Shown here in pieces: positions 20,446-51,648 of a DNA stretch of 64,000 bases. The notes under the pieces are model-generated. The model saw only the letters and a program-made list of their open reading frames with translations. It made no database searches and had not been told where the DNA came from. The translations under genes and the position numbers were made by a program. Position 1 is the stretch's first letter. Each line of letters opens with the position of its first letter. The DNA is from Burkholderia contaminans (GTDB lineage: Bacteria; Pseudomonadota; Gammaproteobacteria; Burkholderiales; Burkholderiaceae). The stretch lies in the NCBI RefSeq assembly GCF_029633825.1, contig NZ_CP090640.1, positions 1,302,001-1,366,000 of the forward strand. The letters run 5' to 3'.

Positions 20446-21375
20446 TTGAATACGCGTGATCTCCAGGCATTCGTCGCGGTGGTCGACAGCGGGTCGATGG
20501 TTGCCGCGGCCGCGAAGCTCCACCTGACGCAGCCGGGCCTGACGCGGCGCGTGCAGAACCTCGAAACGCTGCTCGGCATGCCGCTGCTCGAACGGCAAAG
20601 CAAGCCGCTGAAGCCGACGGCCGCCGGGCGCGACGTCTATGCGCTCGCGCGTAACGTGCTGGGCGCGGTCGACGAGTTGATGGCGGCGGGCGCGCCGGAC
20701 AGCGAGCCGTCGGGCGAGCTGCGCATCGGCGTGCCGCCGTTCCTGTCCGAGCTGGCGCTCGAGCAGCCGATCGACCGGCTGCGCGACGCGTTTCCGCGTC
20801 TCACGCTGCGGGTGACGGCCGGCTGGTCGCCGGCGCTGATGCAGGGCATCGAGCGCGGCACGCTCGACGTCGCCGCCGTGATGGTGCCGGCCAGTTCGAC
20901 ACTGCCCGATACGTTCGCGTCGACGCTGCTCGGCACGCAGCCGACGGTGCTCGTCGCCGCGCGCGACTATCCGCTGCCGGACGGTCCGCTGTCGATCGAC
21001 ACGCTGTCGGGTTTTCCGTGGGTGCTGAGCCAGGACGGCTGCGGGATGCGTTCGGCGCTGAGCCGCATGCTCGGCGCGGCCGGGCTGCCGTTCGACGTCG
21101 CGGTCGAGGCGTTCGGCTCGGAGCTGCAGCTGTCGCTCGTCGCGCGCGGCGCGGGCATCGGCATCGCCGCGCCGAACGCGCTGGCGCGCAGCGCCCATCG
21201 CGATGCGCTGAGGGTGGTGGAAACGGTGGGGCTGGAGACGCGGATCAACGTGTGGATCGTGCACGGCGCGCTGCCGGGCCGGCTGGTGCGGCCGGTCGCG
21301 CTGCTGCGCGATGCGCTGGCCGAAGTGCTCGACCGGGAAAACAGGGTGGGGTCAGATGCGGCGAAGGCGGTCTAG
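20446..21375 (+). CDS. LysR family transcriptional regulator
   Basis: A 309-residue LysR protein: winged helix-turn-helix at 1-60 (DLQAFVAVVDSGSMVAAAAKLHLTQPGLTRRVQNLE) and a co-inducer domain (about 90-295). The start is probably TTG at 20446 because the DNA-binding domain begins right there (NTRDLQAF). The gene diverges from an MFS exporter; LysR regulators usually control the divergent neighbour. An interrupted palindrome ATGTT-N23-AACAT (20396-20428) lies in the 97-bp space and may belong to its site, though it is not a clean T-N11-A box. Confidence 0.9.
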   Translation: MNTRDLQAFVAVVDSGSMVAAAAKLHLTQPGLTRRVQNLETLLGMPLLERQSKPLKPTAAGRDVYALARNVLGAVDELMAAGAPDSEPSGELRIGVPPFLSELALEQPIDRLRDAFPRLTLRVTAGWSPALMQGIERGTLDVAAVMVPASSTLPDTFASTLLGTQPTVLVAARDYPLPDGPLSIDTLSGFPWVLSQDGCGMRSALSRMLGAAGLPFDVAVEAFGSELQLSLVARGAGIGIAAPNALARSAHRDALRVVETVGLETRINVWIVHGALPGRLVRPVALLRDALAEVLDRENRVGSDAAKAV

Positions 21376-21418
21376 AGGCAGCATTCGAGGGAAAATCCTT
21401 ATTTTCTCTACGGAAATG

Positions 21419-21447
21419 TTGCATTGCGGAAACCGATTCGCTATAGT
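21419..21447 (+). promoter_or_regulatory. Strong sigma70 promoter of the candidate small RNA
   Basis: TTGCAT (21419-21424) and TATAGT (21442-21447) are separated by exactly 17 bp; each matches the consensus at four or five of six positions. It lies after the LysR stop and no open frame follows it. The predicted transcription start is near 21454. Confidence 0.7.
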
Positions 21448-21453
21448 TGCACC

Positions 21454-21513
21454 TGTCTCCTCCATGTCTCCTCTGATATGGATTCAGCCCGCCTCTTAGG
21501 CGGGCTTTTTTTT
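21454..21513 (+). ncRNA. Candidate trans-acting small RNA with anti-Shine-Dalgarno seed
   Basis: The predicted transcript is about 60 nt, from near 21454 to the T-run ending at 21513. The 5' half is unstructured and pyrimidine-rich, with two copies of a TGTCTCCTC block (21454-21463 and 21465-21473). The 3' half is a Rho-independent terminator: AGCCCGCCT (21486-21494), CTT loop, AGGCGGGCT (21498-21506), then eight Ts. No open frame is present. The layout is that of a small Hfq-type sRNA whose single-stranded seed pairs with ribosome binding sites. It lies between the LysR gene and the oppositely oriented ompW gene. I cannot say from sequence alone whether it matches a published Burkholderia sRNA. 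Confidence 0.68.
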
Positions 21514-21559: not shown

Positions 21560-22396
21560 TCAGAACTTGTACGTCATCCCGACGTAGCTGATGATCGGAT
21601 CGGCCTTCAGGTCCGATTTCGACTCCGAGAGCACCGTGCCGTCGGCCGCCTTGATCGTCACCGTCGACGTCGTCTTCAGCGGGATGTACGTGACCGACGC
21701 GATCAGCCCGAAATGCTCGGTCATGTTGTACTGCAGGCCCGCGTTGAACACCGGCTGCCATGACGACGACGCCTTCGCCTCCACCGAGGTCGTACCCGGC
21801 TTGCCCGCGCCCGCCGCGAGAACCGCGCCGAGGTTGTCCTGCGTCTGCTTGATGAAGTTCGTGTTGAGCTGCAGGTCGCTGAACCAGTTGTACGACACGC
21901 CGAGGCCGAGGAACGGCCGGAACTTCGCGTTTGCCGCCCCGAAGTAGTACTGCAGGATCGCCGCCGGGCTCCACTGCCGCACGCTCTTCACGATCGGGTT
22001 GACCGAGGCCAGCCCGATGTTCTGCGTGCCGAGCGCGCCGGCCGGGCCGGGCGGCTTGATCGTGCCCTGGCCCGACACCTTGAACACCGGCGGCACGCCG
22101 GCCACCGACGTGACCGCGATATGGTCGGTCAGGAAGTGGCTGACCGTCAGGCCCACGGTGTCGGCGCCGCTCGTGTGCAGCCCGGTGCCCGGCGACGTGA
22201 ACGACGGCGGCAGCCGCAGCGGCGTGTTGATCGGCGTCGGCGCGACGTTGGTCGTCATCGGCGTGCTGCTCTGCTGCGGCATGATATGGAACCAGCCCAG
22301 CGTCACGACGTTGCTGCCAGCGCTCTGCGCGTGCGCCGCGAGCGGCGCCACGGCGGCGGCGCCGGCCGCCGCGCAGAGAAGGGTCTTCTTCATCAC
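21560..22396 (-). CDS. ompW: OmpW family outer-membrane protein
   Basis: A 278-residue protein with a signal peptide (cut after LAAHA-Q) and the OmpW pattern: GWFHIMPQQSS near the N-terminus, PTVGLTVSHFLTDH-like strands, KFRPFLGLGVSYNWF, and the C-terminal strand SYVGMTYKF ending in aromatic Phe, as needed for BAM assembly. OmpW forms a small eight-stranded barrel for hydrophobic compounds. The start is ATG at 22396, or at 22393 one codon later. It follows a DUF2957 lipoprotein gene by 15 bp, so it is probably the last gene of a three-gene unit. Confidence 0.9.
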   Translation of the reverse strand: MMKKTLLCAAAGAAAVAPLAAHAQSAGSNVVTLGWFHIMPQQSSTPMTTNVAPTPINTPLRLPPSFTSPGTGLHTSGADTVGLTVSHFLTDHIAVTSVAGVPPVFKVSGQGTIKPPGPAGALGTQNIGLASVNPIVKSVRQWSPAAILQYYFGAANAKFRPFLGLGVSYNWFSDLQLNTNFIKQTQDNLGAVLAAGAGKPGTTSVEAKASSSWQPVFNAGLQYNMTEHFGLIASVTYIPLKTTSTVTIKAADGTVLSESKSDLKADPIISYVGMTYKF

Positions 22397-38127: not shown

Positions 38128-38775
38128 TTACGCCGTCAGCGCGGCGGGCATCAGCGATTCGATGAACTTCGTGGTACGACGCGCCTGGCGCTTCATCGCG
38201 TAGTCGAATACCGCGGCCTGCTCCTGCAGCATCTCGGCGATGATCGTCGAGTGGTCGGCCGGCGGCAGCGACAGGTACGCATCGGCTTCGCCGTACGCGT
38301 ACTCGATCCGCATCCCGGATTTCTTCGCGATGTGCATCATCGTCGCGTTACGCGACAGGCAGTGCATGTACAGCATCGTCACGTGCGTGTTGCGGCTGCG
38401 GATCGCCGCGCGCTCGAACAGCTTCGAGCCGACGCCGCGGCCGCGTGCGCTTTCGAGCACCGACACGCCGAATTCGGCCGTGCGCTTGTCGCCCTCGGCC
38501 GGCAGGTAGGCCAGGTGGCCGACGCCGATCAGTTCGAGGTCGTGGTCGAATACACCGAACACGGTGTCGCGGCCGAAGTCGATCGTGCGGACGTAGTTCT
38601 CGATCACGTGGTCGGGCACCATCTGGCCGAAGCGCAGCAGGCGATCCTCTTCGTCGAGCGAGAGAAAGTGGGTGAGCATCTGCTCACGGTCTTTGGAAGC
38701 CAGTTCCCTGACGAGAACCGGCGCACTGCCGACCGTGCCGACGACTTCGGCTGGGCCGTTGAATTGCGTGTTCAT
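38128..38775 (-). CDS. GNAT family N-acetyltransferase
   Basis: A 215-residue GNAT protein. The acetyl-CoA motif is GVSVLESARGRGVGSKLFERAA, preceded by the beta-strand pair FGVFDHDLELIGVGHLAYL. The substrate is unknown. The start is the ATG at 38775 (MNTQFNGPAEV), with GAGGAA about ten bases upstream. The C-terminal extension (about 165-215: EMLQEQAAVFDYAMKRQARR) is helical. It converges on the Lrp gene. Confidence 0.87.
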   Translation of the reverse strand: MNTQFNGPAEVVGTVGSAPVLVRELASKDREQMLTHFLSLDEEDRLLRFGQMVPDHVIENYVRTIDFGRDTVFGVFDHDLELIGVGHLAYLPAEGDKRTAEFGVSVLESARGRGVGSKLFERAAIRSRNTHVTMLYMHCLSRNATMMHIAKKSGMRIEYAYGEADAYLSLPPADHSTIIAEMLQEQAAVFDYAMKRQARRTTKFIESLMPAALTA

Positions 38776-39010
38776 CGTGGGTTCCTCAGTGTGTGGCTGC
38801 ACAAACGGGTTGTGCAATGCAACAGCATTTTACCCGACGAGGGTTGGGGAAAACCCGTATTTGACGTTATTTGTGCCGAGGGGAAATTCTAAAACCGCTT
38901 AGTTAATCCTGTATGTATTTGATTTTTAATGGATTTAAAATTCATCATATGAAACGCACGACGGGCGGTCGCAGTGTACCCGTCGCGCAACGCATGCTGC
39001 TGCGCGGCAA

Positions 39011-46439: not shown

Positions 46440-47971
<1,532 letters not shown>

Positions 47972-48035
47972 CCAGAGCTATCTCGCGAAGTTGAGCGCTC
48001 ACGCTTATCGGCTGTAAATTTAAAGACAGACTCAG

Positions 48036-48112
48036 GGGTCTGTAGCTCAGTCGGTTAGAGCACCGTCTTGATAAGGCGGGGGTCGTTGGTTCGAATCCAA
48101 CCAGACCCACCA
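48036..48112 (+). tRNA. tRNA-Ile (anticodon GAT)
   Basis: A 77-nt tRNA with acceptor GGGTCTG/CAGACCC, anticodon loop CTTGATAAG, TTCGAATC T-loop and encoded CCA. Standard first tRNA of the 16S-23S spacer. Confidence 0.97.
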
Positions 48113-48151
48113 TTGTCTGGCGGTAGGTACCTGAGGTCATCTGTACTCAAT

Positions 48152-48227
48152 GGGGGCATAGCTCAGCTGGGAGAGCACCTGCTTTGCAAGCAGGGGGTCG
48201 TCGGTTCGATCCCGTCTGCCTCCACCA
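48152..48227 (+). tRNA. tRNA-Ala (anticodon TGC)
   Basis: A 76-nt tRNA with acceptor GGGGGCA/TGCCTCC, anticodon loop CTTTGCAAG and encoded CCA. Second tRNA of the rrn spacer. Between it and 23S (48228-48504) lie a boxA (48321-48332) and the 23S processing arm 48333-48354, which pairs with 51473-51494. Confidence 0.97.
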
Positions 48228-48504
48228 ATCTTCAATGACAAACATTCGAATGACGATTGTTCGAGTCTTTGTCATTGGCGATTGAGCCAGTCAGAGGATA
48301 TCAACAGATATCGGCTGTCGTTCTTTAACAATCTGGAAGAAGTAAGTAATTTGGATAGCGGAAGCGTCTTGAGATGGACGTGAAAGTTATCCGGGTTGTG
48401 ATTGTATCGATGTATCTCAAGATGATTCGAACTCTATGTTCGACTTAAATTGGAATACGGCACAACGCGAGAACTCAACCTGTAACGAGACAGACTCGTT
48501 ATAG

Positions 48505-51381
<2,877 letters not shown>

Positions 51382-51532
51382 ATAACAAGTCTGCCTTGTA
51401 GATCGGCGCCGTGCGATAGCACTGGCTGCGATCCAAAGCGACAAGTTGGATTCTCGTGTGTGATACACACAACCTAAATTACTGCTTCTTCCAGGATTGG
51501 TTGCGCTGCGAAGCCAGCGCAACAACCCTCTT

Positions 51533-51648
51533 TGCCTGATGACCATAGCGAGTCGGTCCCACCCCTTCCCATCCCGAACAGGACCGTGAAACGACTCTAC
51601 GCCGATGATAGTGCGGATTCCCGTGTGAAAGTAGGTAATCGTCAGGCT
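51533..51648 (+). rRNA. rrf: 5S ribosomal RNA
   Basis: About 115 nt. The ends GCCTGA and TCAGGC pair; the internal CCCACCCCTTCCCATCCCGA and GATAGTGCGGATTCCCGTGT are typical. The exact termini are uncertain by one or two bases. Confidence 0.95.

Follow-up and report, generated by a model that had tools for sequence, protein, structure and literature searches.

A double-hairpin sRNA of family RF02278 in Burkholderia contaminans and its probable control by PhaR

A small RNA gene of Burkholderia contaminans, set between a LysR-type regulator gene and an OmpW-family gene, is a member of Rfam family RF02278 (Betaproteobacteria toxic sRNA), and the -35 hexamer of its promoter lies inside a TGC-N3-GC palindrome that resembles the published site of PhaR. 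The reading of the locus that appears probable is that of a double-hairpin sRNA that would occlude Shine-Dalgarno (SD) sequences, with transcription under the control of PhaR and release upon synthesis of PHB. What is new here is the proposed PhaR control of RF02278 sRNAs; the RNA itself belongs to a known family. Positions are those of the window, the whole stretch of 64,000 nucleotides that was analysed (assembly GCF_029633825.1, contig NZ_CP090640.1, 1,302,001 to 1,366,000), and the features are as follows.

20446-21375, + strand: LysR-type regulator gene, upstream of the sRNA and on the same strand
21388-21409, + strand: near-palindrome AGGGAAAAT-CCTT-ATTTTCTCT, upstream of the promoter
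21416-21432, + strand: PhaR-like box ATGTTGCATTGCGGAAA, overlapping the -35, with 2 mismatches to YTKNTGCRNYGCANMAR
21419-21424, + strand: -35 hexamer TTGCAT, read directly, spaced 17 bp from the -10
21442-21447, + strand: -10 hexamer TATAGT, read directly
21454-21513, + strand: RF02278 double-hairpin sRNA, probable ncS03/RIT100 orthologue (76.5 bits, model positions 1-64)
21454-21460, + strand: seed 1, the unpaired 5' end UGUCUCC (complement of GGAGACA), from fold and ensemble
21461-21482, + strand: hairpin 1, with a loop (21469-21474, UCCUCU) that presents seed 2
21486-21513, + strand: hairpin 2, the intrinsic terminator with its U tract
21560-22396, - strand: OmpW-family gene, convergent to the sRNA

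The expected start of the sRNA is position 21454, 7 nt past the -10, giving a transcript of 60 nt. Two TGTCTCCTC blocks are read directly within it, at 21454-21462 and 21465-21473. The terminator has a 9-bp stem (21486-21494 with 21498-21506) closed by a CTT loop and runs into eight Ts (21506-21513), the first of which is still inside the stem; of the four sites in a local terminator scan, this one has the longest stem. The promoter has no entry in the local scan of the window because TTGCAT fits TTGACA at just 3 of 6 positions. In orthologues the -10 is mostly TATAGT, and also TAGAAT or TATGAT. A preliminary description made from the letters of the window had proposed an sRNA gene that has a promoter to itself (TTGCAT, 17 bp, TATAGT), a perfect 9-bp terminator with eight Ts, and a transcript of about 60 nt with two anti-SD blocks, and these three points are borne out by the elements read at 21419-21447, 21486-21513 and 21454-21513, respectively. 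The U tract and terminator are compatible with an Hfq-dependent sRNA. None of the 25 NCBIfam families listed for the LysR protein reaches its cut-off.

The computed fold of the sRNA has an energy of -28.2 kcal/mol, compared with -11.4 +/- 2.4 in shuffled sequences (z -6.9; 0 of 200 shuffles as good). In this fold 21461-21468 pairs with 21475-21482, and the ensemble agrees that the unpaired nucleotides of the 5' half are nt 1-7 and loop nt 16-21 only. The 5' half had been described as unstructured, an idea rejected on account of this pairing; of the two CU blocks, one forms the free 5' end and the other is held in a hairpin loop. Among 34 diverse, hand-picked sequences, changes on both sides were found in 10 of the 15 predicted pairs overall. 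In hairpin 1 they affect three of six consensus pairs (in 3, 6 and 3 of the 34 sequences), and in hairpin 2, where 8 of 9 pairs are kept in at least 32 of the 34 sequences, they affect 7 of 9.

The match of 21454-21513 to RF02278 covers model positions 1-64 of 64 and scores 76.5 bits where 50 is required (whole-window E = 1.1e-13), and the features of the family, two hairpins together with a CU-rich unpaired 5' end and loop, are present. The name of the family goes back, as cited, to growth inhibition when the RNA was cloned in E. coli. The RNA is therefore not "unannotated", as it had been called, being already represented in Rfam and in papers on Burkholderia sRNAs; a check against Rfam and published lists gives the RF02278 match and a layout that fits the expressed ncS03/RIT100 of B. 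cenocepacia. The candidate of an undescribed sRNA was rejected in view of the full-length match and the published Burkholderia double-hairpin RNAs. The sRNA begins 78 nt past the stop codon of the LysR gene, on the same strand, a position that would also suit a chance hairpin or a terminator of the LysR gene instead of an sRNA gene. Such an explanation is barely credible when set against the full-length RF02278 match and the separate promoter, the identity of nt 1-40 in 31 loci, the unlinked paralogues in the same genome and the published mapping of ncS03 transcripts in B. cenocepacia, and it was rejected on the Rfam match.

In B. cenocepacia, ncS03 is described as a "double-hairpin RNA" with a mapped start and a length of 59 nt (PMC4603805, PMC5688073), and it is listed as RIT100 in a review (PMC10987360). 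Like the window RNA, RF02278 and the J2315 RNAs ncS03, ncS05, ncS27 and ncS62 have two hairpins, CU-rich unpaired stretches complementary to ribosome binding sites (RBS), and a U tract; the J2315 RNAs are 57-67 nt long, with ncS27 at 92 nt and processed (PMC4603805, PMC5688073, PMC10987360). The window RNA is most likely the orthologue of ncS03: the gene order of the window (LysR forward, sRNA forward, OmpW reverse) is the same as that of ncS03, and the RNA is 60 nt long and begins TGTCTCC. The basis of this assignment is the layout together with B. cenocepacia NCTC13227 (L015), in which the same first 40 nt lie behind the same LysR gene; in this comparison no difference was found in the RNA itself.

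The B. contaminans genome (9.44 Mb) has five matches to RF02278, four of them over the cut-off, and the paralogues sit at unlinked places. By length and surroundings, the four copies over the cut-off fit the four J2315 double-hairpin RNAs. Besides the window copy there is an ncS05 type of 68 nt (L002), an ncS27 type of 62 nt plus a leader of about 30 nt, with the -10 about 30 nt further upstream (L003), and an ncS62 type of 59 nt (L004), whose 3-kb locus also includes an autoinducer-synthase gene; ncS62 itself is placed close to cepI (PMC5688073). A perfect GTTGTATCGATACAAC palindrome lies upstream of the ncS62-type start (L004:1444-1459) and was not seen before the other three copies over the cut-off in this genome.

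Conservation of the locus was followed with the LysR protein, and hence independently of the RNA, in a search that gave 46 loci; the window protein is 96% identical to the LysR proteins of B. lata and B. puraquae. The RNA was found after the LysR gene in all 31 Burkholderia loci whose LysR protein matches at 78-96% (L006-L035 and L049, the last matched over 53 residues at 89%). Promoter, seed and terminator are conserved together in all 31, which upholds the expectation of the preliminary description. Nucleotides 1-40 of the sRNA are identical throughout, with changes confined to the loop end of the terminator stem, its loop, position 53 and the tail. The other 15 loci are 13 homologues of 65-69% (including Burkholderia sp. 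H160) and two distant partial matches; among these the RNA occurs only at a Trinickia locus (L041), 2.8 kb away.

PhaR of Ralstonia eutropha has the site YTKNTGCRNYGCANMAR, with up to three mismatches accepted; it represses phaP1 and is sequestered by granules. PhbF of Herbaspirillum has a footprinted site TG[N]TGC[N]3GCAA. The window box deviates from the PhaR site by 2 mismatches, with GCG in place of GCA, and it is weak if taken alone, as some 4% of background windows contain a site with up to 2 mismatches (14 of 328 from the loci surveyed below, 15 of 385 from the window). Such a site lies in 10 of 282 upstream regions of genes in this genome and in 4 of 173 intergenic ones. All 31 orthologues have at most 2 mismatches at the same position, and four of them have 1. 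The genome encodes one PhaR (TIGR01848, 155 bits). One of its two phasin genes has two PhaR boxes, which flank its TTGACA promoter; the second phasin gene (L146) lacks TGC-N3-GCA in the 900 nt before its start, and no box with up to 3 mismatches was found within 300 nt upstream of phaR and phaB. A further PhaR-like box in the window, with 1 mismatch, lies at 38809-38825, where it directly follows a -10-like hexamer, TAAAAT, and precedes a GNAT acetyltransferase gene on the - strand (38131-38775).

Upstream of RF02278 RNAs, TTGC-N3-GCA is present at or near the -35 in many lineages. The box was counted at one locus per genome in 87 of the 144 genomes of the order with a match over the cut-off, from 19 families. 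These genomes were hand-picked, largely from the top of a score-ordered list, and upstream sequence was not a criterion; those passed over include G535, G675, G641, G649, G398, G616, G491, G552, G581, G408, G454 and G637, and L134, which duplicates the site of L163, was excluded. Absence of PhaR means the lack of a TIGR01848 match, in a set in which some genomes are incomplete. Within 150 nt upstream of RF02278, a box with up to 2 mismatches was found in 52 of 69 genomes with PhaR (2.23 expected from shuffles) and in 1 of 18 without it (0.37 expected; Fisher p 6.5e-8, kinship ignored). At up to 1 mismatch the counts are 25 of 69 (0.21 expected) versus 0 of 18 (0.03), and at up to 3 mismatches 65 of 69 (15.3) versus 2 of 18 (2.6). 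The motif was proposed after inspection of 27 of the 87 loci (L107-L135); hence the 60 fetched afterwards were counted apart, and they gave 31 of 43 with PhaR (1.61 expected) versus 1 of 17 without (0.37; p 4e-6). When dyads were counted without a given motif, TGC-N3-GCA ranked first (54 of the 69 PhaR genomes, 5.5 expected). With the 52 boxes taken as -35 elements, -10-like hexamers peak at a spacer of 17 (24 counts, and 34 at 16-18), with a smaller group at 36-38 (13 counts).

The box might be no more than a -35 variant in a conserved promoter context, with control exerted by growth rate or by another regulator, for example through the AGGGAAAAT-N4-ATTTTCTCT palindrome. The region from -70 to -36 is indeed conserved as well as the box, with mean identities of 98% for -70..-51 and -50..-36 across 32 sequences, and the palindrome, of which the genome has no second copy (GAAAATNNNNATTTTC occurs once), is a possible second operator or UP element. 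The two mismatches of the window box point the same way, as do the paralogues: among the four copies over the cut-off in this genome, only the window copy has, at the -35, a box with up to 2 mismatches; there are 3 mismatches at this place in the ncS05 type, and the best sites (2 mismatches) of the ncS27 and ncS62 types lie elsewhere. The -35 alone is not the cause of the box, however, because it is the second half-site that tracks PhaR. Among TTG-type promoters, TTGC is found in 52 of 59 with PhaR and 11 of 15 without, whereas 43 of 59 with PhaR and 3 of 15 without carry GC in the second half-site, the other 12 of the latter lacking it. Moreover, among the upstream regions compared, the palindrome is restricted to window-type Burkholderia copies, while the box spans many families. 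A -35 variant under other control is a rather unlikely account, and control through PhaR remains the preferred reading.

The association of box and PhaR has gaps. The box is in the majority in 9 of 14 family groups with PhaR; families f4 and f10 have it in 8 of 10 and 7 of 9 PhaR genomes and lack it in the one PhaR-less genome that each contains, but f1 (Burkholderiaceae), f8 and f43 have it in 1 of 3, 5 of 10 and 0 of 2 genomes despite PhaR. Loss of PhaR is partly confounded with clade, and co-occurrence of RF02278 and PhaR is itself weak (178/66/88/67 of 399 genomes; odds ratio 2.05). Family f1 was also examined through all 46 copies over the cut-off in 15 hand-chosen genomes of 12 genera, all with PhaR. 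Of the 12 matching f1 genomes in the order-wide set, three were in the 87-genome test and G000, G011, G073 and G083 were taken copy by copy; G075, G095, G111 and G133 were left out, as was G142, which shares its genus with G124. Anywhere in 165 nt, a box with up to 2 mismatches was found in 29 of the 46 copies and one with up to 3 in 41. TGCNNNGCR lies at -37..-28 in 24 copies and at -80..-55 in 9, and it is absent within 150 nt in 13.

Genomes without PhaR have a different upstream signature. TATTAGA occurs upstream of RF02278 in 16 of the 18 PhaR-less genomes versus 2 of the 69 with PhaR, both in f43, and at several PhaR-less loci a palindrome TTAG-N6-CTAA covers the -10 and replaces the PhaR-type box. 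RF02278 RNAs thus seem to have changed regulator between lineages. The conserved motif of the PhaR-less genomes (e.g., L165, L174, L181, L186, L205 and L218) is ATATTAGA. A related promoter has been described for S17 of Bordetella pertussis, whose authors report a 5' region similar to RF02278 RNAs and a promoter with a -35 of TTGCAT, a 17-bp spacer and a -10 of TACTAT; unlike the window RNA, S17 has a long leader and is processed by RNase E, and its authors postulate a repressor without naming it (PMC11722255). The S17 hexamers (TTGCAT/17/TACTAT) recur at two family f4 loci, L119 and L127, where the -35 lies inside TTCTTGCATCGCACAAA, a PhaR-like box with 1 mismatch. The broader proposition, that the RF02278 RNAs of Burkholderiales are largely an arm of the PhaR regulon released by PHB, that PhaR-less lineages use a TTAG-N6-CTAA regulator instead, and that the S17 repressor is PhaR, is somewhat better than an even bet.

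The PhaR-like palindrome over the -35 would place transcription of the sRNA under PhaR. PhaR would repress the sRNA and, during PHB synthesis, would move to the granules and leave the sRNA to be released; the released sRNA would then lower translation of genes for uptake and catabolism of carbon compounds and amino acids. PhaR of R. eutropha can also activate, as it does at phaP3, so the repressive sign is what we infer here. That published dual role leaves room for the converse arrangement, PhaR as activator and the sRNA made when PHB is absent, which is improbable: the box overlaps the -35, where bound PhaR should exclude polymerase, and ncS03 rises in glucose medium (PMC5688073). This 8.0-fold increase and a 2.6-fold one in starvation (Table 2, PMC5688073) are counted in favour of PhaR/PHB control. 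ncS03 changes by +2.9 in biofilm, and it also rises in osmotic stress (+2.7) and at low pH (+3.5; PMC5688073), two responses not obviously explained by PHB. Control of an sRNA by PhaR has a precedent in MmgR of Sinorhizobium meliloti, an sRNA with a role in carbon storage whose promoter is bound by AniA/PhaR (PMC12542648, PMC8401924). MmgR is an alphaproteobacterial sRNA and is likened to RF02278 by its regulation; given this precedent, the kind of circuit is already known.

As to the mode of action, the seed UGUCUCC and the loop UCCUCU would bind target mRNAs at extended SD sequences (GGAGACA, GGAGGA), and such pairing would stop ribosome binding in trans. GGAGACA is the most frequent of all 7-mers within 20 nt ahead of the first ATG (9 of 286 ORFs), and GGAG is followed by ACA in 9 of 70 cases before first ATGs versus 26 of 1512 overall; the 286 genes are crude ORF calls (first ATG, at least 450 nt, G+C-rich third positions). 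Duplexes at or below -18 kcal/mol were computed for 15 of 286 gene starts versus 3 of 286 gene bodies, but the energies over SD regions are not significant, 30 shuffled seeds giving a mean of 9.2 and a maximum of 23 against the 15 of the real seed. This computation does not prove targets, and there is no clear pairing of the sRNA at the starts of phaP (-11.5), phaR (-9.2) or phaB (-15.3 kcal/mol). The target-blocking step rests instead on published predictions, in which 55-80% of the predicted targets of double-hairpin sRNAs lie around gene starts and comprise transport and metabolism of carbon compounds, regulators and envelope genes (PMC5688073), and on the growth attenuation reported for ncS27 (PMC5688073). 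By analogy with these relatives, we infer SD occlusion for the window copy as well.

Two wider roles had been suggested for the RNA, that of a global translation repressor and that of a titrator of the ribosome. The first holds in part: growth attenuation by ncS27 and the RBS-centred targets agree with it, but the predictions are limited to certain gene classes and do not extend to all mRNAs. The second is rejected. The sRNA and the 3' end of 16S rRNA share CCUCC in the same sense, that of the 16S anti-SD, so that the sRNA would compete with 16S for mRNAs and would not pair with 16S itself. A complete rRNA operon (16S, two tRNAs, 23S and 5S) lies elsewhere in the window, at 46440-51647.

The regulator behind accumulation of the double-hairpin sRNAs was stated to be unknown in the 2017 paper, which describes a motif shared by the upstream regions of three of the four J2315 RNAs and gives it no name in the main text (Fig. 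S3, PMC5688073); this figure may already show the PhaR-like box, unnamed. No link between PhaR and RF02278 was found in literature listings or in the four main texts searched by term: the main texts of PMC5688073 and PMC4603805 contain no PhaR, PHB or phasin, that of PMC11722255 no PhaR or PHB, and that of PMC7011215 has PHB only in the title of a reference. If the proposal is true, PHB granules that titrate PhaR would release several paralogous RNAs, so that stored carbon would put a brake on nutrient uptake and the "toxic" RNAs would report on PHB storage. The link would join the regulation of PHB to post-transcriptional control of nutrient use, with relevance for producers of biopolymers, Cupriavidus and Herbaspirillum among them.

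RF02278 is present in all 65 genomes of the genus, in 285 of 299 of the family (278 over the cut-off), in 244 of 399 of the order (144 over the cut-off), and in 103 of 369 of the class, where only 3 are over the cut-off, the B. contaminans genome and two others of its order; none of 14 control genomes has a match. Neisseria NmsR, as cited in PMC5688073, resembles the window RNA in having two CU-rich unpaired stretches directed against RBS regions, but it is a tandem pair, whereas the RF02278 copies in B. contaminans are dispersed single copies. Matches below the cut-off (28-49 bits) occur outside Burkholderiales (e.g., L136, L137, L140, L141 and L142), and the RF02278 cut-off of Rfam may be too strict. 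Those sub-cut-off matches that were examined retain the CU seed and the double hairpin, and some are in tandem, about 150-220 nt apart (G969, G990, G852 and G884).
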